Shown piece after piece: positions 4,510 through 19,200 of a stretch of 64,000 nucleotides of DNA. The notes beneath the pieces are model-generated. The model searched no databases and had not been told where the DNA came from. It saw only the letters and a list, made by a program, of their open reading frames with translations. The stretch is from Propionibacteriaceae bacterium (GTDB lineage Bacteria; Actinomycetota; Actinomycetes; Propionibacteriales; Propionibacteriaceae): positions 1-64,000 of the forward strand of contig WQZD01000010.1 of assembly GCA_009780915.1 (NCBI GenBank). Reading direction: 5' to 3'. Each line of letters begins with the position of its first letter. Positions within the stretch are counted from its first letter, which is position 1. A program made the translations under genes and the position numbers.

Positions 4510-4544
4510 AGAGCGAGTACAGACTACCATAAGTCTGTCCTCGG

Positions 4545-4616
4545 AGCCTCCGATGGGTCTCGAACCCATGACCTTCCGCTTACAAGGCGGATGCTCTACC
4601 GCTGAGCTACAGAGGC
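4545..4616 (-). tRNA. tRNA-Thr (anticodon TGT)
   Basis: A 72-nt minus-strand cloverleaf. The acceptor GCCTCTG pairs with CGGAGGC, the anticodon loop is CTTGTAA in the stem TCCGC/GCGGA, and the T arm has GGTTCGAGACC. Its first 21 bases are also the last codons and stop of the upstream surface-protein gene on the same strand. Confidence 0.95.
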
Positions 4617-5315
4617 GCGCCGCCGAGATAGTCTAGCAGCAAACAAGCCGAAAGCGCCCACCGCGAGCAGTGTGCCTGCGATCCAGGCCCCCGTGTGGGG
4701 AGCGATCGAGCCGCCGGTCGCGACGAGGGAAGAGCCGGTGTCCTCGACCATCGTGACCCGCACGTCGAAGGTCAGCGTGGACGGCGTGTCGAGGTCCCCC
4801 ATCCCCTTGGTGGCCTCGATGGGGAAGTAGAAGCCCGCCATGATGGGGAACTCGCCGCCCTGGGGCACGTCGAAGGTGGCGGTGTACGACACGAGGGTCT
4901 CGTCCTCTTTGTCGAGTTGCTTCACCCAGGGCTGCTCGCCCTTGAAGCCGTTGAAGTCCCAGACGATCCGGATCAGGTTCTCGAAATCGGTGTGCGCGAC
5001 AGGGTCCTCGTGGGAGGCGCGGATGTCCACGATCTGCACGCTCACTCGCGCGGCCGCGGGCCCGTCGTTGCGGACGATGGCCGAGTGCTCGACTCGGTCC
5101 CCGGGAACGACCACCACGGTGTCCTGCACTGCGCCCCCCATGACGACGCGCGTCTGGCCGTCCCAGGTGACGGAGGTGGTACGTCCCCACTCGATGGTGC
5201 TCTGCTTGGCCGGGAGGGCACGTGACGGGGTGTCCGCCATGGCGGCCGCCGGCGCGCCGACGATCAGACCAGCGACCAGGCCGGCCACTGCGATGACTTT
5301 CAGGACAGTTTTCAT
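4596..5315 (-). CDS. Secreted surface protein with sortase-like anchor, SipW-cluster partner
   Basis: 239 residues. An N-terminal signal peptide (MKTVLKVIAVAGLVAGLIVG, then AMA cleavage) leads to a ~170-residue beta-rich extracellular domain. The tail is built like a cell-wall sorting signal: LVATGG, a hydrophobic stretch (GTLLAVGAFGLFAA), then basic RLSRRR. LVATG is a non-canonical LPxTG-like motif and no sortase gene is in the window. The start overlaps the signal peptidase stop (ATGA). The last six codons (ASVAQR) and the TAG stop lie inside tRNA-Thr, so the original C-terminus may have been a little different. The role is probably anchoring or assembly for the TasA-like proteins of the cluster (inference). 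Confidence 0.8.
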   Translation of the reverse strand: MKTVLKVIAVAGLVAGLIVGAPAAAMADTPSRALPAKQSTIEWGRTTSVTWDGQTRVVMGGAVQDTVVVVPGDRVEHSAIVRNDGPAAARVSVQIVDIRASHEDPVAHTDFENLIRIVWDFNGFKGEQPWVKQLDKEDETLVSYTATFDVPQGGEFPIMAGFYFPIEATKGMGDLDTPSTLTFDVRVTMVEDTGSSLVATGGSIAPHTGAWIAGTLLAVGAFGLFAARLSRRRASVAQR

Positions 5316-5953
5316 AATGGGCTCTCCTCGATGAAAGCGCGGCGGGGCGCCACCAGTACGTCATCCTCGTCGGGCTCGTCTGCCGAGCCCTCGGGATCGA
5401 CGCGATCGGGGTCCTCCTCGTCGCGGGTCCTTCGGAAACTTGAGAGGTACGTGACGACGGCGTACCCGATCACCAGGATGCCGACGCCGGGGATCGCCCA
5501 GGGGCCGTACGGGCCGAGGGCCTGTTTCACCCAGCCGATCTTGGGGATCACGTAGAGCACCTCGCCGCGGACCTGGAAGTCGCGGACGGGGTTCCACGGG
5601 TCGTATGCGTTGTTGTTGTCACCCTTGGTGACGAAGGAGTACCCCTCGCCGGAGACGGAGGTGGCCATGATGCGGTGCGTCACGAGGGTGGGGTCGTCGG
5701 GATAGGGAAGGAAGACGATCACGTCGCCGATCTGGAGGTCCTTGGCGGACTCCTTGTCGATGCCCTTGGTCACCACCACGTCTCCGGGATGGATGCCGGG
5801 CTCCATGGACCCCGTGAGCACCGTCAGGCTCATGCCGCCCATCACCTTGGGGACGACCACCATCGCGACCGCCAATCCGAGGAGGATCAGCATGGCGAAA
5901 GTGATGAACCCCGACAGGATGGCCGAGCCCCAACTGGTCCCGTTCTTGCTCAC
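5312..5953 (-). CDS. SipW-type signal peptidase I
   Basis: A 213-residue membrane protease of the ER/archaeal (SipW) type of signal peptidase I. It has an N-terminal membrane helix (residues 11-36) and the catalytic serine S49 in VLTGSMEPGI. H93 in VTHRIM replaces the lysine of ordinary bacterial enzymes. It also has the TKGDNNNAYDP box, a second membrane helix (GPWAIPGVGILVIGYAVV) and an acidic cytoplasmic tail. The start is GTG 5953 after AGGTGA. SipW enzymes process a dedicated set of TasA/CalY-like substrates, and three such genes lie immediately upstream. This is separate from the housekeeping lepB at 21.2-22.0 kb. Confidence 0.92.
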   Translation of the reverse strand: MSKNGTSWGSAILSGFITFAMLILLGLAVAMVVVPKVMGGMSLTVLTGSMEPGIHPGDVVVTKGIDKESAKDLQIGDVIVFLPYPDDPTLVTHRIMATSVSGEGYSFVTKGDNNNAYDPWNPVRDFQVRGEVLYVIPKIGWVKQALGPYGPWAIPGVGILVIGYAVVTYLSSFRRTRDEEDPDRVDPEGSADEPDEDDVLVAPRRAFIEESPL

Positions 5954-5989
5954 TGTGTCACCTATCGTGTGTCGATGTCTGGATGTGTT

Positions 5990-6046
5990 GAGGGGGGCGG
6001 CACAGGGCCACCCCCCTCGGTGCGTCCATAGGTGTCACCTATGGAC
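5990..6046. promoter_or_regulatory. Two inverted repeats between TasA-like gene and sipW
   Basis: The perfect near-palindrome 6024-6046 has 11-bp arms around a single T (GTCCATAGGTG-T-CACCTATGGAC). Its half-site GTGTCACCTAT recurs at 5955-5965, right at the sipW ribosome site. A second inverted repeat, GAGGGGGG...CCCCCCTC, spans 5990-6018 with no T-run. This may be an operator plus a weak attenuator setting the substrate-to-peptidase ratio (inference). Confidence 0.5.
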
Positions 6047-6061
6047 ATTATGCGCTGGTGC

Positions 6062-6811
6062 TCAGCCTTCGGTCGGGCAACCTGTGAAGTTGCTGATATT
6101 CGCAGGAATCTCACAACGAACCTGCGTCAGCTTCATCGTGGCGGTCTTGCTGAGAGCCAGGACCGCATTCGTGTCGATGTCCTTATCGGTGTTCTCATCA
6201 AAGGTGATGTAGAGCACGACAGTGATGTCGCTGGAATCAGTCGAGGGCGAGCCGATCATCGGAATGGAGCCATCAGCCTGTCCGGACTCCTGGTTCTGCG
6301 CCTGGAAGTACGAGACGACAAAGTTACTTGTCGTGCCTGTGACGGCCTTGGGGGTGCCGAACAAGGCTACCGCGCCGTTGAACACGTTGTATTCGATGGA
6401 GACGTTCTTCATGCCGTTTGCACCAGGAGTAAACGCAGTGCCGTCAGTCGTAGTGGTGCCCAAGCCGTCCACAGCCAGTTCAGCGACCAGGTTGTCACCC
6501 TTCATGGTGATGGTGTAGGGCATCACGAGTGCCACGGTGTCCCCGGGAACGATGTTCCAGTTGGCGTCGATGGCGTGGCCCTTCGGAAGACCGTACTTGT
6601 CGAGCACGACACCGTCGGTACGGTCAGCGGACACGTCGTACATCGACACGTCGCCATTCGTATCAATCTTCAAATCACCTGCTGTGATGGTACCCGACCC
6701 CAGATCCTGGGACGAGGTCCACAGTGCGTAGGTGGAACCGCCCATGAGGAGAGCAGCCCCGGCCACAGCCGCGATGACGGCGTTACGCCTCTTGTGTTGT
6801 GTGTTTTTCAT
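6062..6811 (-). CDS. TasA/CalY-like SipW-dependent exported protein (third in cluster)
   Basis: 249 residues from ATG 6811, preceded by AAGGAGAAAAACAAT; the longer frame to 6922 lacks a site. The basic start KRRN leads into a hydrophobic segment (AVIAAVAGAALLMGGSTYA) and the group signature ALWTSSQDLG...TAGDLKI found after the cleavage site of alternate-signal (SipW-type) exported proteins. The mature ~210 residues are beta-rich and Thr/Asp-rich. One Cys pair near the C-terminus (RCEIP...GCPTEG) may form a disulfide. Family members form extracellular fibres or biofilm matrix. GC here (~58% in a sampled line) is lower than in neighbours. Confidence 0.83.
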   Translation of the reverse strand: MKNTQHKRRNAVIAAVAGAALLMGGSTYALWTSSQDLGSGTITAGDLKIDTNGDVSMYDVSADRTDGVVLDKYGLPKGHAIDANWNIVPGDTVALVMPYTITMKGDNLVAELAVDGLGTTTTDGTAFTPGANGMKNVSIEYNVFNGAVALFGTPKAVTGTTSNFVVSYFQAQNQESGQADGSIPMIGSPSTDSSDITVVLYITFDENTDKDIDTNAVLALSKTATMKLTQVRCEIPANISNFTGCPTEG

Positions 6812-7000
6812 ATTGTTTTTCTCCTTGTGTTTGTGACCGTGCCGCACCCCCGGATGCGACGCGGTCGGTCCCTCGGACTCGACTGCTCGAGTCCTCGATG
6901 AAGGCCCTCGTACCTTCACCAAGTTTCATTGACGACCAGATGCCCGTGCGCCCGTGCGCCGACATCCCTTCTGAAGCGGATCGTCCGTGTGGCATCATGT

Positions 7001-7714
7001 TTACCACCCCGCCACAAGTGCTGGTGTGAGCATCACGCTCACCGACGTCTGACCGGCTGGGTCGGGCGTGAGGTACGTGCTCCACGTGTCCTGGGAGCTC
7101 ACCTGGGCACCGACGGCGTTCGTCCCCGTCGCCGTGGCCGTGTTCTCGAACTTCTCAGGTGTGATCGACAGCACCAGGCACCAGTGGTCGACCTTCTTTT
7201 GGACGTCCGAGGTGACGCTCGTGATCCCCGCCACGGGGGTTCCCAGCGTGTACGACGCCGCGCTCGCGGCGGCATCCACCGTGCACCCGACGGAGTCGTC
7301 CACCCGGAAGAATGTCTGCGCGGCGTTCCCCGTGCCCAGGACCGTGTCGGCTCCCGGAGCGTCAGGCATGGTGATGGAGTAGTCCATGGTGTACCGCCCC
7401 GATGTGGTCATCGTCACGTCGAAAGGAACGGCGATGGCCAGGACTCCGGCGTCATCGGCCGTCGAGGCGAACAACTGCTGGGCTTCCGGTTCCCCGATCG
7501 TGAACGACACTCCACTGCTGGACTGCGCGACGTTCGCCTCGCCACCTTTGGTGACGGCGAATCCGGCCACAGGCACGCTGAACGACACATCACCCGACGT
7601 GGCCTGGTCGGACCACAAAGCCCAGGCGAGCCCGGCGCCCAGTCCGGCCAGGATGGAGAACACAGGCGCTATGAAAGATAGCCACCCCCGACCCGCGCGA
7701 CGTTTCTCACTCAT
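7001..7714 (-). CDS. TasA-like SipW-dependent exported protein (second in cluster)
   Basis: 237 residues. A basic N-terminus (MSEKRRAGRGW) and hydrophobic core (PVFSILAGLGAGLAWA) end in ALWSDQATSG, the same A-L/M-W-S/T signature as its two paralogues. The mature domain is predicted beta-rich and contains a single Cys pair (VGCTVD...DHWCLV). The start overlaps the upstream gene's stop by 8 bp, so the two are co-translated. It lacks the AGDLKI form of the second motif (VAGFAV instead), making it the most divergent of the three. About 190 bp without a gene separate it from the third paralogue. Confidence 0.78.
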   Translation of the reverse strand: MSEKRRAGRGWLSFIAPVFSILAGLGAGLAWALWSDQATSGDVSFSVPVAGFAVTKGGEANVAQSSSGVSFTIGEPEAQQLFASTADDAGVLAIAVPFDVTMTTSGRYTMDYSITMPDAPGADTVLGTGNAAQTFFRVDDSVGCTVDAAASAASYTLGTPVAGITSVTSDVQKKVDHWCLVLSITPEKFENTATATGTNAVGAQVSSQDTWSTYLTPDPAGQTSVSVMLTPALVAGW

Positions 7715-8375
7715 CGGTCACCTCGGGCTCGCCGGTCGGGCACGCGACGGAGAAACCCGTGCCGCACCGGACCTGATTCGCAGTGACTGTGAGAGCTCCC
7801 AAAGACACCGTCTGAGGGGCGGGGGTGGCTGTCGGGTCGACCCACTGGGGGCCGGCCTCGGGGGAATAATGGACCAAGCTGATCACGACGACCCACTTCT
7901 GGTCAGTCGAGTCGTGCGTGTCGGGGAGGAGCAAGGCGGTCGTGATCTTCACGTCGCCCTTCTCGGGGGCCACCTGAGCCGGGGCGCCGTCGACGACCTT
8001 CTCCACATGCCACTGGGCGAGGAAGCCGTCCGGCATGGACGCGAAGGCGACGGAGAACTCCACCGCGAGATTGTCCCCCACGAAAGACGAGGTGACCTCC
8101 TGGCGGATGGTCAGTTCCTGTCCAGGCGAGAGGACGAGGTCGTCCAGGCTGCACGCCTGGGCCCCACCCTTGCTGTCAGCACACGTGACCGACATCTGCC
8201 CCAGGCCGATCTCGAAGTCTCCGGCGGCCACCGTGGCGCCGATGGTGGATTGTGAGGTCCACATGGCGTAGGTCAACGAGCCGGTCAGAAGCGTGAATGC
8301 TGTCAGGAGGATGGCGAAAGGGGCAGTCCAGCGACGCTTGGTGATGGCGCGGCGAGGCGCGGTGGTGCCAGTCAT
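7707..8375 (-). CDS. TasA-like SipW-dependent exported protein (first in cluster)
   Basis: 222 residues from ATG 8375 behind GGAAAGGAGG; an open frame continues to GTG 8528 but is unlikely to be translated. The basic start (RRAITKRRW), hydrophobic segment (FAILLTAFTLLTGSLTYA) and AMWTSQSTIG...AAGDFEI match the alternate-signal exported protein families. The mature part is beta-rich with two Cys pairs (TCADS..QACS and RCGTG..VACP). The last pair closely resembles the end of the third paralogue, so these two probably share a fold. It leads the operon. Confidence 0.82.
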   Translation of the reverse strand: MTGTTAPRRAITKRRWTAPFAILLTAFTLLTGSLTYAMWTSQSTIGATVAAGDFEIGLGQMSVTCADSKGGAQACSLDDLVLSPGQELTIRQEVTSSFVGDNLAVEFSVAFASMPDGFLAQWHVEKVVDGAPAQVAPEKGDVKITTALLLPDTHDSTDQKWVVVISLVHYSPEAGPQWVDPTATPAPQTVSLGALTVTANQVRCGTGFSVACPTGEPEVTDE

Positions 8376-10336: not shown

Positions 10337-11413
10337 TCACAGCCGGACGGAGAACTCCCACCTCGTCCTGCGGACGTATGTCTGTCCGGGTCGCAGGAGG
10401 ACGGACGGGAAGTCGCCGCGACGCGGGGCGTCGGGATACTCCTCGGTCTCCAGCGCGATCCCCGTGCGGGGCCCGCCGGCCCCGAGCGGGTGGGTCACGC
10501 GGGTGTCGGACAGGAACTGCCCGGTGTAGACCTGGAGGGCCGGATAGTCGGTGTGGATGCTCAGGGCGCGTCCCGACGTCGTGTGCCACAGGTGGGCGGC
10601 TGGCCGCAGGCCGTCCGGCCCCGGGGCGCCGTCGAGGATCATCGCATGGTCGATGCCGCCATGGGCGCGCATCTGCGGGTCCTGGCTCGCCAGGACCTCG
10701 CCCAGGTCAGCCGTGCTCCCGTCGACGTCGAAGGGCGAGCCGGCACGCGGCGCGGGAGCATCGGGACGAGGCAGTGAGTGCTCGTCGATGGGCAGGTAGT
10801 GTCCCGCCGTGACGGTCAGTCGGTGGTCGTCGATGGGCGTCGCGGCGCCTGACAGGTTGAAGTATGGGTGGCTGGCGATGTTGACCACGGTGGGGACCTC
10901 CGTCTGGACCTCGACCGTGTGCGTCAGGGCCCAGCAGGCGGCGGGCCCGTCCGACTCACGGTCTGGCCCGGGCGGCCGCGGCTCGCACATGGCGACCTCG
11001 TAGACCACCTGAGCATGGACCGGGCCGGCGAACCCCCCATCGGGGTCGCGCCAGTCCAGACGCAGGCACACCGACCGTGGGTCGGCGATCTGGGGAGTGG
11101 AGTCGATCCTCCACTCGTTGGCGCTCCACCCGTGGGACCCGGAGTGCAGGGTGGCGAAGCCCTGGTCGTTGAGCTCCGGGGTGTACGTCTGACCGTCGAT
11201 GACGTACCCGCCTGGTCCGATACGGTTGGCGACCGGTCCGCAGATCTCGCCGAGGTAGCCCGTCCCGGCCCGCCGGTCTTCTTCGGTGTCGTACCCCAAC
11301 AGGACCGACTCGACCCTCCCCTCACGATCGGGCATGCGGATGTCGTTGACACAGGCGCCCAGGCTCCACACCTCCACGGCGAAATCGCCCTGGGCCAACC
11401 AGATCTTCTCCAT
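10337..11413 (-). CDS. galM: Aldose 1-epimerase
   Basis: 358 residues from ATG 11413 after GGAAGGGGACGAT. Galactose mutarotase features are present: GEICGPVANRIG near residue 70, LHSGSHGWSANEW with the catalytic-type His near 105, SHPYFNLSG near 185, and a C-terminal ALETEEYPDAP containing the catalytic-type Glu. It equilibrates the alpha and beta anomers of free aldoses. It is transcribed toward rpiB with a 115-bp gap, which has nothing obvious beyond spacer. Confidence 0.92.
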   Translation of the reverse strand: MEKIWLAQGDFAVEVWSLGACVNDIRMPDREGRVESVLLGYDTEEDRRAGTGYLGEICGPVANRIGPGGYVIDGQTYTPELNDQGFATLHSGSHGWSANEWRIDSTPQIADPRSVCLRLDWRDPDGGFAGPVHAQVVYEVAMCEPRPPGPDRESDGPAACWALTHTVEVQTEVPTVVNIASHPYFNLSGAATPIDDHRLTVTAGHYLPIDEHSLPRPDAPAPRAGSPFDVDGSTADLGEVLASQDPQMRAHGGIDHAMILDGAPGPDGLRPAAHLWHTTSGRALSIHTDYPALQVYTGQFLSDTRVTHPLGAGGPRTGIALETEEYPDAPRRGDFPSVLLRPGQTYVRRTRWEFSVRL

Positions 11414-11576
11414 ATCGTCCCCTTCCACCACTACTCAAGCACGCGGATGGACGAAAAGCCACTGACGCTCCGCATGAATGGCTCACCGCATGAGTGTTCC
11501 ACCGCATCATCGTCCCTTCTCGGAGGCTCCGACATCAGTGAGGCCCGCGGAGGGCGATCCGGATCCGCATCGAGGA

Positions 11577-11618
11577 TAGAGTGGACTCGCATGTCCTCCT
11601 CGGGGCGTGCGAGTCCAC
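11577..11618 (+). promoter_or_regulatory. pyrC -10 box and 5' leader hairpin
   Basis: A TAGAGT -10-like box (11577-11582) overlaps the start of a perfect 10-bp inverted repeat, GTGGACTCGC (11581-11590) and GCGAGTCCAC (11609-11618), 12 bp before the pyrC ATG. The 18-nt loop contains TCCTCCT, which could pair with purine-rich ribosome sites. It may be a pyrimidine-responsive leader; no match to a known PyrR site is claimed. Confidence 0.5.
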
Positions 11619-11629
11619 GAAGGAACGCC

Positions 11630-12904
11630 ATGGCCGATCTCCTGATCACAGATGTGACCCTGCCCGATGGACGCCGGGTCGATCTCGGCATCCACGACCA
11701 GATGCTGGTCGACCCCGCCGACCTCATCCGCCCGACCCTGATCCGCGCGTCCGGGTTGATCGCCCTGCCGGGGCTGGTCGACCTGCACACCCATCTGCGC
11801 GAGCCCAGCCCCCACCCGGCCGAGACCATCGCCACCGGCACGGCCGCGGCCGCCAGGGGCGGGTTCACGGCCGTGTTCGCCATGGCCAACACCAATCCCG
11901 TGACCGACACCGCGTCCCGAGCGCGCGACATGGCGGCCAGGACCCGCGCCGCCAGCGCGGAGGTCCTCACGGTGGGCGCCATCACGGACGGGCTCGACGG
12001 CGCGACGCTGTCGGACATGGCGGGCATGAGGGCCGAGGGCGTGACCTATTTCTCAGACGATGGCCGGTGCGTCATGGACGCGGGACTGATGCGACGAGCC
12101 ATGCTCGACGCCCGTGCGCTCGGCGCAGTCGTCGGCCAGCACTGCCAGGACCACACCTTGGCGGGGGCGGACGCCTATCTGCCTGACTGCTGCTCGCCAG
12201 CGTCCGAGGACTCCATCGCCTGGCCCTGGTCAGCCGAGTCGACGATCGTGGCCCGCGACGTGCAGTTGTCCCTCGACACAAGGGCCCGCCTGCACGTGTG
12301 CCACGTCTCCACCGCGGAATCCGTGGACGTCATCCGGTGGGCCAAGTCCCGCGGGATCCCGGTCACCGCCGAGGTCACGCCTCACCATCTCCTGTTGGGC
12401 GCCGACCTGCTGGCGTCGGCGGACACCACCTTCAAAGTCAACCCTCCCCTGCGATCCGACGAGGACCGCGACGCGGTCCGACACGCCCTCGCCGATGGGA
12501 CCATCGACATCGTCGCCACCGACCACGCCCCTCATCTGGCTTCCGACAAGGACAAACCCTTCCCATCCGCCAAACCGGGCATGGTCGGGCTGGAATGGGC
12601 GCTCGCCGTGGTCCAGCACACGATGGTCGACACCGGCCTGATGACATGGACCGACGTTGCCCGCCGGATGTCCCACGAGCCCGCACGCATCGGCCAGATC
12701 TCCTCACGACAGGGCCGCCCCCTGACGCCGGGTGAACCGGCCACCCTGACACTGATCGACCCGGCCAGGCGCACCGTGGTGGACAGGGACGCCGCCGTCA
12801 CCCAGGGCCGCAACAACCCCTACCACGGCATGGAGCTTCCCGATCCGATCCTCGCCACCTTCTGGGCCGGACGATCCACCTACCGCTCCCCTGCGCTCAT
12901 GTGA
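11630..12904 (+). CDS. pyrC: Dihydroorotase
   Basis: 424 residues from ATG 11630 (site GAAGGAAC); the frame stays open for 760 bp upstream, but that part is the shadow of galM. It is an amidohydrolase-family dihydroorotase with metal-binding H53 and H55 in LVDLHTHLREP, the VTAEVTPHHLLL segment, and DIVATDHAPH near residue 300. It closes carbamoyl aspartate to dihydroorotate in pyrimidine synthesis. It stands alone here rather than in a pyr operon, diverging from galM, with its own promoter and leader hairpin. Confidence 0.95.
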   Translation: MADLLITDVTLPDGRRVDLGIHDQMLVDPADLIRPTLIRASGLIALPGLVDLHTHLREPSPHPAETIATGTAAAARGGFTAVFAMANTNPVTDTASRARDMAARTRAASAEVLTVGAITDGLDGATLSDMAGMRAEGVTYFSDDGRCVMDAGLMRRAMLDARALGAVVGQHCQDHTLAGADAYLPDCCSPASEDSIAWPWSAESTIVARDVQLSLDTRARLHVCHVSTAESVDVIRWAKSRGIPVTAEVTPHHLLLGADLLASADTTFKVNPPLRSDEDRDAVRHALADGTIDIVATDHAPHLASDKDKPFPSAKPGMVGLEWALAVVQHTMVDTGLMTWTDVARRMSHEPARIGQISSRQGRPLTPGEPATLTLIDPARRTVVDRDAAVTQGRNNPYHGMELPDPILATFWAGRSTYRSPALM

Positions 12905-13022
12905 GCACCCGGTAAGCGCCCGCGTCAGGACGTGCCTCGCTGACCGCTCCCCGGCGCTTCGTCGTGACCACCCGAACGCGTGAGCATACGTGACCACCCG
13001 GGCACGTGAGCGCACACGCCCC

Positions 13023-14153
13023 TCAGTCACCGCGCTGCTGACCTCTATGGTCCACAGCCCGCCACAATCCCGGGGCGGTCTCGACGGCGAGATCCCTGGC
13101 CGCCAACTGGCTCAGGACCACCATGAGGGTCAGGGCGGACTCCCCGGTCCTCACCGCCAGCTCGTCCACGGACACGCTGCGTCGAGCGCTGAGCGTCTCG
13201 TGAATGGCCTGCTGCTCGGTGGTGAGCGCGTCGAACAGCGTGGGTGGCGCCCGCACATAGTCCGACGCGCACGCCGTCAACGGCCCCACGGCCTGCAGGA
13301 TGTCCTCCACGCTGGTCACCAGCACCGCTTCGCCAGCGCGGATCAGACGATGCGGCGTCACCGACATGGCCGAGGTGACCGGCCCTGGGGCTGCCATGAC
13401 GAGCCGCTGCATGGACAGGGCCCAACTGACCGTGTTCTGCGCGCCGGAGCGCATCGCCCCTTCCACGATGACGGTCGCCGCCGACAGGGCCGCGATGAGC
13501 CTGTTGCGCACCAAGAACCGCGATCGCGTGGGAGTGGAGTCGGGCGGGTACTCGCTGACCACGGCCCCCGTCTGCCGGACCTTCTCCAACAAGGACGAGT
13601 TCCCCGGAGGGTAGAGATGGGCCAGCCCCGACGCCATCACAGCCACGGTGGCCCCGCCCGCCGCCAACGCGCCCCGGTGGGCGGCGGCGTCGATCCCGAA
13701 GGCGCCCCCGGAGACCACGGCATGCCCCTGTTCGGCCAGTCCCACGGCCCAGTCGGCGCTCACATGCTCCCCGTAGGTCGTACTGGCCCGTGAGCCCACC
13801 ATCGCCACAGGGGCCTCGAGCCGGGCCAGGTCGAGAGGACCCGCCACCCACAACCCCATCGGCGGCCCGCCGACGCCGCCCACGGGCTCGCTCCACATCA
13901 GATCGTCCACCCCTGCTGGCCACTCCTCGTCGCCGGGGATGATGAATTGGGCCCCGATCGCCTGCGTGTCCCGGGCCAGTCGATCCACATCCACTCGGGC
14001 CGCGCGCCGTGCGAGGGAGGACGTCCCCGGCCCGGAGCGGACCGACTCCCACACGTCCACAGCCCCTTGGTCTCTCACGAGGGCCGCCAACCCGAGGTCG
14101 CCCGCGTCATGGGCGGCCGCCAGCCCCATCCTGGCCATCCGTTCGGTCATCAT
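13023..14153 (-). CDS. dprA: DNA processing protein DprA
   Basis: 376 residues from ATG 14153, which shares one base with the comM stop (TGATG). The Rossmann-like core shows VAMVGSRASTTYG, VVSGGAFGIDAAAHRGAL, VMASGLAHLYPPGN and FLVRNRLIAALS. A C-terminal winged-helix-like segment follows. DprA loads RecA on incoming single-stranded DNA during transformation and may protect plasmid or phage DNA. It is last of a yraN-comM-dprA operon, the common actinobacterial order. Confidence 0.95.
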   Translation of the reverse strand: MMTERMARMGLAAAHDAGDLGLAALVRDQGAVDVWESVRSGPGTSSLARRAARVDVDRLARDTQAIGAQFIIPGDEEWPAGVDDLMWSEPVGGVGGPPMGLWVAGPLDLARLEAPVAMVGSRASTTYGEHVSADWAVGLAEQGHAVVSGGAFGIDAAAHRGALAAGGATVAVMASGLAHLYPPGNSSLLEKVRQTGAVVSEYPPDSTPTRSRFLVRNRLIAALSAATVIVEGAMRSGAQNTVSWALSMQRLVMAAPGPVTSAMSVTPHRLIRAGEAVLVTSVEDILQAVGPLTACASDYVRAPPTLFDALTTEQQAIHETLSARRSVSVDELAVRTGESALTLMVVLSQLAARDLAVETAPGLWRAVDHRGQQRGD

Positions 14154-15682
14154 CAGCGGATCTCCTCTCCCTGTCGCAACGCCAATGCCACCGACACGTG
14201 GTCGGCGGTGGGCCGGTCCTGGCCCTGCAGATCCGCCACCGTCCACGCGACCTTGAGGACCTTGTCGACTCCCCTCGCCGTCAACGTCCCGTTGGCCACA
14301 GCCGCGTCGAGGACGCGCATGTCAGCAGGCAAGGGCAGTTCTTTGCGCAGGTAGATCCCCGGGACCTCGGCGTTGGTCGTCCAGGGGGTCCCGTGCAGCC
14401 GGGCCGTCTGCCTGGCCAGGGCCTGTCGGACCCTGAGGGCCACCACGGCCGAACTCTCCGGCTCCTTCCCGCCGTGCGCCACCAGACTGCGTCGCACGGG
14501 CAGGATGTGCGCCTGGATGTCGATGCGATCCAGGATGGGCCCCGACAGTCGCGAGGCGTACTTGCGGATGGCCGTGGGCGAGCAGGTGCATCGGCTCCTC
14601 GGCGTGGCGGCCAGGCCGCAGGGGCAGGGATTGGCCGCCAAGACCAGTTGGAAACGCGCGGGATAGCGCACAGACATCTGCGACCGGCCGAGGCGGATCT
14701 CCCCCGATTCCAGGGGGGTGCGCAGGGCCTCCAGCGCCACCGTCGAGAACTCTGGGGCCTCGTCGAGGAAGAGCACGCCCCGATGAGCCAAGGAGACCGC
14801 TCCCGGACGGGCGATCCTCGCCCCGCCACCGATCAAGGACGCCAAGGAGGCCGAGTGGTGGGGGGCCGAGTACGGGGGCCGTTCGGGGAGGGAGTCGATC
14901 GAGACGTCCACCAAGGAGTGGATGGCCGCCACGTCCATGGCCTCGACGGTGGTCAGGTCGGGCAGGATCGTGGGCAGGCAGGACGCCAGGAGCGTCTTGC
15001 CCACCCCCGGCGGCCCGTGGAAGAAGAGATGATGACGTCCGGCCGCGGCCACCTCCAGGGCCCACCGGGCCTGGGCCACCCCGACCACGTCCTCCAGATC
15101 CGGGGGCGGCTCCGTTCGCGGGGCAGCCGAGGACGGAGCCGACGCGACGACCCCGGGCCCTCCGCCCAGGACGCTGACCAGATCGGCCAGATTCTTCACG
15201 CCGCGCACCTGGATGCCGTCGACCAGGCTCGCCTCACCGACCTGCGCGGCTGGGACGACCGCCCGCTCGACCCCCAGACGCCGAGCGCCCAGGAGGGCCG
15301 GCAAGACGCCCCGGACCGGATGCACCTGGCCGTCCAAACCCAGTTCGCCCAAGAGGAGCACGCCGTCCAGAGATCGGTGGTCGACGACCTTCTCTGTCGC
15401 CAGCACGGCGGCGGCGATGCCCAGGTCGTAGTGGGAGCCGGTCTTCGGCAAGGAGGCCGGAGTCAGGTTGATGGTCAACACCTGACTGGGCCAGGTGTAT
15501 CCGGCAGAGAGGACCGCCGCGCGACACCTCTCTTTCGCCTGCGTCAGGGCGGCGTCCGGCAGACCGACCATGGTCGTGCGCGGAAGACCCGATCCGGTCC
15601 ACGCCTCGATGGTGACCATCATGGCCTCCATCCCCAACAGCGCCACCGACTGGGCACGTGCGATCCCCCACACCGACGTCAT
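14153..15682 (-). CDS. comM: YifB/ComM Mg-chelatase-like AAA+ ATPase
   Basis: 509 residues. The N-terminal ChlI-like domain (IEAWTGSGLPRTTMVGLPDAAL, then INLTPASLPKTGSHYDLGIA) is followed by the AAA+ module with Walker A GPPGVGKT near residue 225 and Walker B GVLFLDEAPEF. The arginine-rich sensor region and the C-terminal ChlI domain come last. ComM is a helicase that promotes branch migration in natural transformation. Its start overlaps yraN (4 bp) and its stop overlaps dprA, so the three are translationally coupled. Confidence 0.95.
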   Translation of the reverse strand: MTSVWGIARAQSVALLGMEAMMVTIEAWTGSGLPRTTMVGLPDAALTQAKERCRAAVLSAGYTWPSQVLTINLTPASLPKTGSHYDLGIAAAVLATEKVVDHRSLDGVLLLGELGLDGQVHPVRGVLPALLGARRLGVERAVVPAAQVGEASLVDGIQVRGVKNLADLVSVLGGGPGVVASAPSSAAPRTEPPPDLEDVVGVAQARWALEVAAAGRHHLFFHGPPGVGKTLLASCLPTILPDLTTVEAMDVAAIHSLVDVSIDSLPERPPYSAPHHSASLASLIGGGARIARPGAVSLAHRGVLFLDEAPEFSTVALEALRTPLESGEIRLGRSQMSVRYPARFQLVLAANPCPCGLAATPRSRCTCSPTAIRKYASRLSGPILDRIDIQAHILPVRRSLVAHGGKEPESSAVVALRVRQALARQTARLHGTPWTTNAEVPGIYLRKELPLPADMRVLDAAVANGTLTARGVDKVLKVAWTVADLQGQDRPTADHVSVALALRQGEEIR

Positions 15683-16053
15683 AGCCGCACCGCCTTCGCG
15701 TGGGTCAGCGTGGATGTGGCGCCTGGAGGCGACAGGATGCCGATGGCGTCGATCCGCACACGGGAATACCCCGTCTCATGGGTCGCCATCCAGATGCACG
15801 CCAGCCTGTGCAGCCGTTGCAGCTTCGAGCGCGTGATGGCCTCCAGCGGTTCTCCGAATCCGGTCCCCGACTTGACCTTCACCTCACAGAACACCAAAGT
15901 CCCCCGCCCATAGGACGGCTCAACGGCGATGATGTCGATCTCGCCGATCCGGGCGTACCTCCAGTTGCGCTCGACGATGCGCCAGCCGAGATCCTCCAGA
16001 TAGTCGGCTGCGAGGTCTTCGCCAGCCTGCCCGATCTTCTTTCGTTGGTCCAT
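15679..16053 (-). CDS. yraN: YraN/UPF0102 endonuclease-like protein
   Basis: 124 residues from ATG 16053 after GGAGGTGGGCA; the upstream extension to 16176 is not conserved. GEDLAADYLEDLGWRIVERNWR, then GEIDIIAV and LVFCEVKVKSG, make up the Holliday-junction-resolvase-like fold typical of the family. The biochemical role is unsettled. It is first in the operon with comM and dprA. Confidence 0.92.
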   Translation of the reverse strand: MDQRKKIGQAGEDLAADYLEDLGWRIVERNWRYARIGEIDIIAVEPSYGRGTLVFCEVKVKSGTGFGEPLEAITRSKLQRLHRLACIWMATHETGYSRVRIDAIGILSPPGATSTLTHAKAVRL

Positions 16054-16281
16054 TGCCCACCTCCACCTCAGACCATGTGCGGGACCACTCGGCTCGTGTC
16101 GCTCGTCCACAGGAAAAAACCACAGGTGACGAGTTATCCACAGATGGGCACGTCCACGACAGATCGGAGAAACCAATCCAGAGCGCTTCTTGCCGTCGCG
16201 TGGACCACCACCCCGCCTGATACAGGTCTAGACTGGAGAAGGAACTGTGGCGCAGTTCGACTGCCTGGAAATGGGGATTCT

Positions 16282-19200
16282 GTGCTTCACCTTGACGAGG
16301 TTCGCAAGACCTACCGCACCGGGACCTTCACCCAGGCGGCCCTCGACGGCGTCACGATCACCTTCCGCGACAACGAGTTCGTCGCGGTCCTCGGGCCCTC
16401 GGGGTCGGGGAAGACCACCTTGCTCAACATCGTCGGCGGCTTGGACCACGCCGACTCCGGCGACCTCGTCATCGACCAGGTGTCGACCAAGCAGTACGCC
16501 GCCCGCGACTGGGACACGTACCGCAACAACCGCATCGGGTTCGTCTTCCAGAACTACAACCTCATCCCCCACCAGACCGTCCTCGCCAACGTGGAGTTGG
16601 CCCTGACGCTCTCCGGGGTCTCGCGGTCTGAACGCGCCGCCCGCGCCGAGCAGGCGCTCGCCCAGGTCGATCTGACCGAGCACATGCACAAACTGCCCAA
16701 CCAACTCTCCGGCGGGCAGATGCAGAGGGTCGCGATCGCCAGGGCGCTGATCAACGACCCCGAGATCTTGCTCGCCGACGAGCCGACCGGCGCCTTGGAC
16801 TCGAAGACCGGCGTCCAAGTGATGAACCTCCTGCAGGGCATCGCGCGTGATCGCCTCGTCATCATGGTCACCCACAATCCCGAACTCGCGGACCAGTACG
16901 CGAACCGCATCGTCTCCCTGCGAGACGGACAGGTCGTCGCCGACACGCGTCCGTACGTCCCCGGCGACGCCGCTCGCGTGGCGAAACCCGTGCGGCGCAC
17001 GTCCATGAGCTTCCTCACGGCCATCGCCTTGAGCTTCACCAACCTCATGACGAAGAAGGGCCGCACCCTGATGACGAGCTTCGCCGGCTCCATCGGGATC
17101 ATCGGCATCGCCTTGATCCTGGCGCTGGCCAACGGCCTCAACGTGTACATCCGCTCGGTGGAGGAGAACACGCTGTCCGTGTACCCCCTGAGCATCCAGA
17201 CGCAGGGAATCGACCTGACGAGCATGCTGACAGGGGGAAGCAGCGACAGCAGTTCCAGCCCCTCCTCCGACCCGACCTCGACGGGCGAGGCCCACGAGAC
17301 CAAGCTGCTCGCCACCATGTTCTCCCACATCGGGGCGAACGACCTCGCGTCCCTGAAGACCTTCCTGGACTCCCCCGCGTCCGGCATCGCGCCGTACGTG
17401 AACTCCATCCAGTACAACTACTCGGTCACGCCTCAGATCTTCGCGTCCGACACCACTGACGGCGCTCGGCAAGTCAACCCGAACAGCGTCTTCTCGGCGC
17501 TGGGGATGAACTCCACGTCGTCGAGTTCGGTGATGTCCATGGGGATGTCCACCAACGTCTTCTCGTCCCTTCCCGACGACATGGGCCTGCTCGCGGGACA
17601 GTACGACCTCGTCGCCGGCCAGTGGCCGCAGAACGACAACGAGTGCCTTCTCGTCTTGAGCAGTTCGGGCGGAGTGTCCGACTTCGTCTTGTACGCGATG
17701 GGCCTGCTGGACCCGGCGCAACTGACCCAGATGGTCACCAACATGGCCCAGAACAAGCCCATCGACATCCCCACGGGAACCATGGACCTGACCTACGACC
17801 AGTTGATGTCCGTCACCTTCAAAGTCGTGAACGCCACCGCCTTCTACGAGTTGGACCCGACGTACCAGGTGTGGACGGACAAGAGCAAGGACGCCGCGTG
17901 GATGACCGCCGCCGTGAACGCCGGCGAGCCCTTGAAGGTGGCCGGAGTGGTCGTCCCCGATCCTGCGGCCACGGCGACCATGCTGCGCCCAGGCCTGTAC
18001 TACCCCGCCAGCCTGGTACGCCATCTGATGGCCGAGTCGGCCGCCTCCCGGATCGTCCAACAGCAGTTGGCCAACCCCACGGTCAACGTCTTCTCGGGCA
18101 AGACCTTCGCCGAGGAGGCCCAGAACCCGACGATGGCCGACTTCGACTTCTCGTCGATCCTGAACGTCGACCCCGAGGCGTTGACGCAGATGTTCAGCTT
18201 CGACTCGTCCAGCCTCCAACTCTCCTTGCCGTCCCTGGACTTCAGCTCACTGGCGCTGAACCTTCCCACCGTGGCGCCTCCCGACCTCACCCAGATCCTG
18301 GGGTCGCTCAACCTGAGCGTCTCCCCCGACGCCCTGGCCTCTCTCTTGTCTCGTACGATCGGCACCTACCTCAAGGACATGTTCGGGGTCACCATCCCCG
18401 ACCTGTCGACGCTGACGACCTCGCCCCTGACGACCTCGCCCCAGACAGCCACGACTGTGACGGTCCCGCCCCTGACGACGTCACCCTTGACGACGTCAGG
18501 GGTGGCGACGGCACCCTTGGCGACGTCAGCCCAGACGGCGCCCCAGACGTCATCCTCCGCGTCGCCCGTCCTGGCCGCGCCGGCGACGGCGACCGAGCAG
18601 TCGTCCCCGGGCACCTCGGCTCACGCGACGGCCCCTCCCCTCGGGGCCCCGCTCACGCTGGCCACCTCCCCTGTCGCGGTCACCCCACCCACAGACACCA
18701 CCGAGACGGCGTCGTCGTCCACGCCATCGGGCACGCCGTCGGCCACGCCGGCCGCACCGTCGGCGTCCACAGGACCCTCCCTCGCCCTGCCACCTCTGAC
18801 CACGTCGCGAACCCTCGTCCACCTCCCGCTCGACCCGGCCCCGGACTTCACGGACGAGACCACGTCAGAACAGGCGCCAGACCCGCAGTCAGACCCCGTG
18901 CTCGACCCACCCACGCAAGCCCCAGACGAGCCGACGGCAGATCCCTCACCCCAGGACACCCCCACGAGCGACCCGGGATCTGACGCGACCCCGACCGAGC
19001 CGACCCAGCCGACCGACCCGACCTCCGAGAACCCCGCCATCACGCCGTCCGACGACGTGACCGGCACACAGACCGGGACGCTGGGGGGCACGGGCGCCCC
19101 GACGACCGCGCCGGGCCTGGGCGCTTCCGCCCCCACCACCACTCCGGGCATCGTCCTTCCCACCTGGGTGCCCAGCGACGTCGCCAGCGCCATCACCAGC

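Follow-up and report, generated by a model that had tools for sequence, protein, structure and literature searches.

Five genes on the minus strand of a 64,000-nucleotide (nt) stretch of DNA from an uncultured bacterium of the Propionibacteriaceae, related to Propionibacterium (positions 1 to 64,000 of contig WQZD01000010.1, assembly GCA_009780915.1; this whole stretch is called the window here) run from position 8375 down to 4596 in the order A-B-C-S26-D, and are somewhat more readily explained than not as an actinobacterial operon for a SipW-dependent fibre of the donor-strand type. C would form the shaft, A and B would be minor subunits, a giant protein would serve as the adhesin, and D would form the base. 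An original prediction had described the locus as a self-contained export module of three paralogous TasA-like substrates, a dedicated SipW-type peptidase, and a sortase-motif protein acting as wall anchor. The five genes are positioned as it claimed, and the signatures of A, B, and C end an N-terminal hydrophobic stretch. The stop codon of the S26 gene overlaps the start of D by 4 nt, and D terminates in the expected LVATGG motif, helix, and RRR tail. All five frames are open and have plausible ribosome sites; the genes A and B share 8 nt, and the gap from B to C is 189 nt. The window is part of contig C10 of a genome of 2.78 Mb in 45 contigs, which is 99% complete.

Table 1. Features of the putative fibre operon and its surroundings (window coordinates; aa, amino acids)
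Feature	Position	Strand	Description
A	7707..8375	-	222 aa with the SipW-type signal YAMWTS; probably a minor subunit of the fibre
B	7001..7714	-	237 aa with the SipW-type signal WALWSD; probably a minor subunit or an adaptor
C	6062..6811	-	249 aa with the SipW-type signal YALWTS; probably the major subunit of the fibre
C-to-S26 gap	5954..6061	-	108 nt, fold z -5.8
Perfect 10-bp inverted repeat, 3-nt loop, upstream of the G+C-rich hairpin	6024..6046	.	found by eye and fold
G+C-rich hairpin between C and the S26 gene	5990..6018	-	12-bp stem, no T-run
S26, SipW/ER-type signal peptidase	5312..5953	-	213 aa, GTG start, catalytic Ser49 and His93
D	4596..5315	-	239 aa with an ordinary signal peptide, an ectodomain rich in beta structure, and an end of LVATGG, helix, and RRR; probably the base of the fibre or a partner in its assembly
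tRNA-Thr	4543..4616	-	21-nt overlap with the 3' end of D

The search of the whole genome with TIGR04088 (E<=1) yielded exactly three places, which correspond to A, B, and C. The A-(L/M)-W-(S/T) signature is therefore not a chance resemblance, and the three proteins carry the only SipW-type signal peptides of the genome. The places of A and B scored 16.2 and 14.3 bits, relative to a cut-off of 19. When the proteins were scanned with hmmscan, C exceeded the cut-offs of both TIGR04089 (62 bits versus 60) and TIGR04088 (22.8 versus 19), whereas A remained below them (40.6 bits for TIGR04089, with a match over most of the model, and 12.3 bits for TIGR04088) and B matched neither, so that the proposed family membership is confirmed for C but not for the other two. 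A, B, and C have no Pfam match, B has no relevant NCBIfam match, and TIGR04090 does not match the subunits. Mature A and C are nevertheless homologous: the hhalign comparison covers 194 columns at 99.8%, and remains at 98.7% without the signal and first strand. The family of B was recognized across genera through its gene position and the profile A4; the alignment rows of A2-A5 were chosen by position and similarity. Homology between C and D was tested by hhalign and none was found (0.6%). Searches of PDB sequences with the profiles of A, B, C, and D returned nothing credible, and the DUF11 and B_ant_repeat Pfam matches of D are at noise level.

The peptidase S26 passes TIGR02228 (90.2 bits, cut-off 51.85) and falls short of the Bacillus SipW equivalog NF046067 (78.9 bits, cut-off 190). 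Ser49 and His93 are shared by all 15 aligned relatives; the residue numbers are those of P0004, and the first row of the alignment, which begins at codon 2, is numbered one lower. Among solved structures, the human SEC11 signal peptidases come closest to S26. At ~21.2-21.9 kb lies the gene of a second protein of this family, which is of the LepB type and below the TIGR02228 cut-off. The prediction of a dedicated Ser/His peptidase apart from lepB, with substrates of its own, is supported. The genomic association and the precedents from Bacillus and Clostridium (PMC9674648, PMC7395162) suggest that S26 cleaves A, B, and C.

The gene order is conserved across genera of Actinomycetota, which supports the original interpretation. 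Eighty loci (L091-L170) were obtained from the peptidase alignment, with S26 called in 60 and not called in 20. Genes on the loci were called by a simple codon-score script, because of which some of the starts are wrong, and the synteny counts include duplicate DNA, such as L069/L091 and L076/L102. Among the 38 loci of actinobacterial type (L091-L128, 36 with S26), C is directly upstream of the peptidase gene in 24 and D directly downstream in 18, with both in 13. The order A-B-C-S26 was found 13 times, giant-A-B-C-S26 in 11 of the 38 loci, and A-B-C-S26-D in 12 of the 38. The remaining 42 loci (L129-L170, 24 with S26) include one with C upstream and none with D downstream. The window and 35 further loci (26 with S26) contain C upstream in 20, D downstream in 12, and both in 10; the complete A-B-C-S26-D order is present in five of these 36 loci, with the window counted. 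An alternative order, C-S26-A-B-D, occurs in L109, L120 (twice), and L124. Giant-A-B cassettes stand alone at L085, L086, and L087, and C-S26-D cores at L054 and L060. The two kinds of cassette are separable, which suggests that the operon is built of a tip sub-module and a core sub-module. P0005 has matches in 15 of the 147 family genomes, and P0003 in 28.

In Nocardioides-type loci (L130, L131, L133, L136, and L138), S26 was seen by eye to be followed by a protein of ~120 aa and a divergent response-regulator-like gene. This arrangement reads like a different type of SipW locus, one that includes a signalling pair.

The gene for C is set apart from that of the peptidase. The A>B junction overlaps in 17 of 27 cases and the S26>D junction in 14 of 24, whereas the C>S26 junction overlaps in none of 36 and has a median gap of 137 nt. 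A hairpin with z below -2 occupies the C>S26 gap at 24 of the 26 loci tested, including the window, with a median minimum free energy of -36.2 kcal/mol over 50 nt; the C>S26 gap of the window folds at -50.3 kcal/mol. The same threshold is passed by 13 of 60 other same-strand gaps, five of 17 B>C gaps, and six of 13 gaps before the giant gene or A. The corresponding Mann-Whitney p values of 6e-9, 3e-6, and 1e-4 are optimistic because the loci are related. The shuffles were dinucleotide-preserving, 60 of 109 control gaps were sampled, and L102, L104, and L116 were omitted from the 38 loci. The sequences of the hairpins vary among the loci. An ordinary terminator with a T-run is not supported, as a terminator scan shows none at this position. 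The hairpin fits partial termination or 3'-end protection, which would raise C over the peptidase and D, and its strength in setting off the C cistron makes C the likely major subunit. A further observation concerns the same gap: the motif TAGGTGACAC occurs within the inverted repeat 6024-6046 and again immediately ahead of the GTG that starts S26 (window 5954-6046). The repeats of TAGGTGACAC are a possible operator or leader element.

The predicted structures of C and D point weakly to TasA. The AlphaFold model of C has a predicted local distance difference test (pLDDT) score of 73.7, with residues 13-33 and 35-43 below 50, and that of D has a score of 76.1, with a C-terminal helix formed by residues 208-237. 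The TasA fibre 8aur is the best Foldseek match of C among 350,542 PDB chains, with an E value of 0.019 and a TM-score of 0.28. TasA is also first in the VIA-align search with D (5of2, Z 7.8, 136 residues, 3.9 A; 5of1, Z 7.2). All TasA matches of C and D have Z under 8. That TasA tops a search for each of two models unrelated in sequence is jointly suggestive, while each match alone is weak. As regards the expected TasA fold, TasA leads one search for each protein, with weak matches.

The operon is headed in relatives usually by a protein of ~900-1000 aa, which is termed beta-helix-type here on the basis of its repeat pattern. The giant proteins start with an apparent ordinary signal peptide, and some of them have a CSLREA-like start (20.1 bits in L100, cut-off 25). 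The highest mean hydropathy of any 18 residues within the last 80 is 1.70 among 24 giant proteins, which therefore have no strongly hydrophobic C-terminal stretch to serve as an anchor. A profile of the giant proteins, searched against 96 proteins from the window and four loci of its genome, recovered exactly three (271-281 bits). They form a tandem trio of secreted proteins of 1072-1110 aa on contig C4 (L178:7394-10636, 10871-14089, and 14363-17695), each with a repeat-rich N-terminal part and a TIG domain, and their genes do not adjoin SipW-signal genes. The description of the module as self-contained is at best partly supported, since in relatives a giant protein heads the operon and here three such proteins are encoded on contig C4.

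Starting from the observed genes, signals, peptidase type, gene order, hairpin, and sorting motif, the assembly of the fibre may be envisaged as follows. The subunits would be exported by the Sec pathway and cleaved by the S26 peptidase before the A-(L/M)-W-(S/T) signature. C, produced in excess, would polymerize by insertion of its freed mature N-terminal strand into the next subunit, as in TasA, which is reported to assemble through an N-terminal donor strand after maturation by SipW (PMC9674648). The donor strand of C would be the conserved A-L-W...T-A-G-D-L segment, which has low confidence in the model of the monomer. A and B, as minor subunits, may cap the shaft or link it to the giant beta-helix/TIG adhesin. 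D, with its TasA-like ectodomain on a membrane helix, may start the fibre or form its base, and would be retained in the membrane or possibly linked by a sortase.

Several results weigh against this model. Of the 396 genomes of the phylum that were searched with the C profile, only 21 (in 17 of 246 genera) contain members, and for several of these the match is confined to the signal region. Neither PF12389 nor NF046066 matches A, B, or C at E<=1. The comparison of C with the mature domains of SipW substrates from Bacillota and archaea gave 0.7% and 0.2% in hhalign, and the matches to a camelysin-like set (89.1%) and a Lachnospiraceae-type set (90.2%) cover the signal and first strand only. The substrates had been described as three paralogues, which is shown for the mature parts of A and C only: mature B was tested by hhalign and no homology was found to A (0.3%) or C (0.6%). 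A longer match between A and B reaches 95%, and seems to reflect mostly the signal region. The structural evidence is shared with other folds. In the VIA-align search with C, 8aur ranks 26th (Z 5.2, 139 residues, 4.2 A), the first match is an adhesin domain (Z 6.4), cannula subunits reach 5.5-5.9, and CfaB and FimA are also listed. SID1, GOLD domains, and a bacterial cellulose synthase lie within 1 Z of 5of2 in the search with D, and the Foldseek search with D is led by three phage chains (E<0.001), with 5of2 ninth at 1.6e-3. There is no giant gene beside A in the window, and a tblastn search for a remnant upstream of A gave only matches of 11-34 residues with E values of 0.16-0.94. As regards the anchoring of the base, a search of the own genome with TIGR01167 (LPXTG_anchor, E<=1) found five places, with D not among them. 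The class E sortase homologue of the genome (P0007) does not contain any cysteine, and the TLTTC of others is replaced in it by TLTTA.

The C-terminal end of D has the LPXTG-type pattern of an L-x-x-T-G motif, a hydrophobic helix, and a positive tail, and a TG just before the C-terminal helix was counted by a script in 39 of 45 D-type proteins; the count overlooked the LAVTG of L110 and includes an invalid fused frame (L058), a protein cut by a stop codon (L055), and two cut by contig ends (L059 and L092). LVATG could be a variant of the LAXTG site that class E sortases are reported to take (PMC5148588). P0007 is a protein of 206 aa encoded on contig C5 (L089:7796-8416, minus strand), with 132.3 bits for NF033747 (cut-off 160). 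The catalytic position is occupied by A or S in all 11 loci of the genus that were examined (L214-L224), five of which also have the histidine changed, whereas the cysteine is kept in all but one of the 19 loci that represent other genera of the family (18 of 19), the exception, g13, having Ser. Throughout the genus, the class E sortase is, as judged by these residues, a cysteine-less pseudoenzyme, and because the change is common to the examined members of the genus it probably predates the species of the window. The only other sortase found in the genome with PF04203, on contig C16, is of class B over its cut-off and retains LLSTC; class B sortases are said to prefer NPXTN (PMC5148588). It adjoins four tandem genes for secreted proteins of ~450 aa (L090:5213-11802), of which the two that were scanned have weak matches to pilin isopeptide domains, below the cut-off, and the locus is a candidate for a second pilus, of the sortase type. 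The prediction that D is a wall anchor is at best partly sustained: the TG motif is conserved, while the expected class E enzyme lacks its cysteine and the class B enzyme stands beside pilin-like genes of its own. It is therefore doubtful that D is covalently attached to the wall in this genus, and tethering in the membrane or a TapA-like role is as likely.

It is possible, although we lean away from it, that D is a membrane-held assembly factor resembling TapA or CapP, which provides the first strand for C or acts as its chaperone, so that the fibre is shed or held non-covalently. The cysteine-less sortase found in all 11 genus loci examined is consistent with this function, as are the genomes G075 and G121, which have D and in which the sole PF04203 match is of the cysteine-less type; these genomes are, however, incomplete (93% and 85%). 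TapA is reported to donate a strand and to be absent from the filament (PMC10151520), but TIGR04087, the TapA family, has no match in D at E<=1. Relatives of D from Leucobacter, Cellulomonas, and Microbacterium extend 37-64 residues beyond the start region of the helix and carry CxxC pairs, unlike ordinary sorting signals. In contrast, the frequent TG before the helix would be puzzling if the helix did no more than span the membrane. In a side observation, the relatives of D in L100 (10672-11700), L103, L105, L106, L110, and L111 have an N-terminal stretch before the first hydrophobic segment, and in the same loci the tail with the CxxC pairs lies past the TG, helix, and RRR, which is unusual for sorting signals.

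A, B, and C may alternatively be separate secreted or matrix proteins, perhaps carbohydrate-binding or camelysin-like, which do not form a fibre and for which S26 is a private export route, with D as an unrelated operon-mate. The carbohydrate-binding modules, lectins, and adhesins that match C and D at equal or better Z agree with this explanation, as does the isolated position of mature B. Furthermore, no SipW fibre of Actinomycetota was found described in the open-licensed PubMed Central (PMC) literature, judged by titles and the beginnings of abstracts. We nevertheless regard this explanation as unlikely, because an assembly of several subunits accounts better for the five-gene block shared across genera, its overlapping junctions, the hairpin isolating C, and the rank of TasA as best match of two members that are unrelated in sequence. 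It is very improbable that the fibre is partly decayed in this species, with a tip gene that left the operon, a dead anchoring sortase, and an operon of reduced function, since the five open frames with their ribosome sites, the three intact giant proteins, and a sortase change probably older than the species outweigh the missing giant gene or remnant upstream of A and the lost cysteine.

The nearest named records in the peptidase alignment are metagenome genomes of Propionibacteriaceae whose isolate codes, among them Emb289, Lab288, and Nt197, correspond to samples from higher-termite guts according to PMC7024585; the genome of the window probably has the same origin. The last seven codons of D (ASVAQR-stop, 4596-4616) lie inside the tRNA-Thr gene. 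The 21-nt overlap recurs at L054 and L063, indicating that D borrows its stop codon from the tRNA gene. The interpretation of A-D as a mobile island at tRNA-Thr was dropped, as apparently the same sugar-metabolism genes (epimerase-like and RpiB-like, identified by eye) adjoin in L054 and L069. Between positions 1572 and 3457, beside tRNA genes, small gene pairs resemble toxin-antitoxin modules by eye: a RelE/HigB-like gene with a helix-turn-helix partner and a GNAT gene with a DUF1778-like partner.

TasA-type fibres have so far been studied in Bacillota and some archaea. If the fibre model is correct, donor-strand fibres are a more general organelle of Gram-positive bacteria with a defined architecture. 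A bolder proposal, offered tentatively, is that the operon represents an undescribed class of Actinomycetota fibres, uniting two systems regarded as separate, in which a SipW-processed donor-strand shaft with a giant adhesin stands on a TasA-fold base with a sorting motif, tip and core cassettes are exchangeable, the stoichiometry is set by the hairpin, and in the genus of the window the base has been kept despite a pseudo-sortase. The operon is conserved in Cellulomonas, Leucobacter, Microbacterium, Cellulosimicrobium, and termite-gut Propionibacteriaceae, so that it can be tested in cultivable genera, and the hairpin directly predicts the abundant subunit.

The families of the subunits and peptidase are already known from the catalogue entries TIGR04088, TIGR04089, and TIGR02228. 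TIGR04089 (exp_by_SipW_III, proteins with an alternate-type signal peptide) has C as a member and A below its threshold, and its family description does not include the operon context, hairpin, giant partner, or D. For the architecture of the operon, the hairpin, and the pseudo-sortase no description was found in the literature covered, which for the pseudo-sortase was one listing of papers. The closest parallel is tapA-sipW-tasA of Bacillus subtilis, with a dedicated Ser/His SipW beside its substrates, a jelly-roll subunit of the TasA type, for which C is a candidate here, and an accessory protein linked to the cell. Unlike that operon, the one described here lacks a relative of TapA and has three proteins with SipW signals rather than two, mature domains dissimilar in sequence, a D protein with an ordinary signal peptide and a TG-helix-RRR end, and a giant beta-helix/TIG partner. 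BsaA polymers of Clostridium perfringens are reported to require SipW, and a predicted terminator after bsaA divides a short sipW-bsaA message from a long one (PMC7395162). The sipW-bsaABCRSD operon (TIGR04090) resembles the model of the present one in having a peptidase, a single major polymer protein that depends on SipW, secreted proteins in minor roles, and a predicted transcription break after the gene of the major subunit. It differs in subunit family, gene order, and the presence of a two-component pair, and the accessible part of its description mentions no protein with an LPXTG-type motif such as that of D. The sipW-tasA/calY/capP system of Bacillus cereus is reported to be sortase-independent and to combine two SipW-processed subunits with a surface-held assembly factor (PMC13082335), a combination that the present operon would share, except that CapP is itself processed by SipW according to the same source, whereas D has an ordinary signal peptide.

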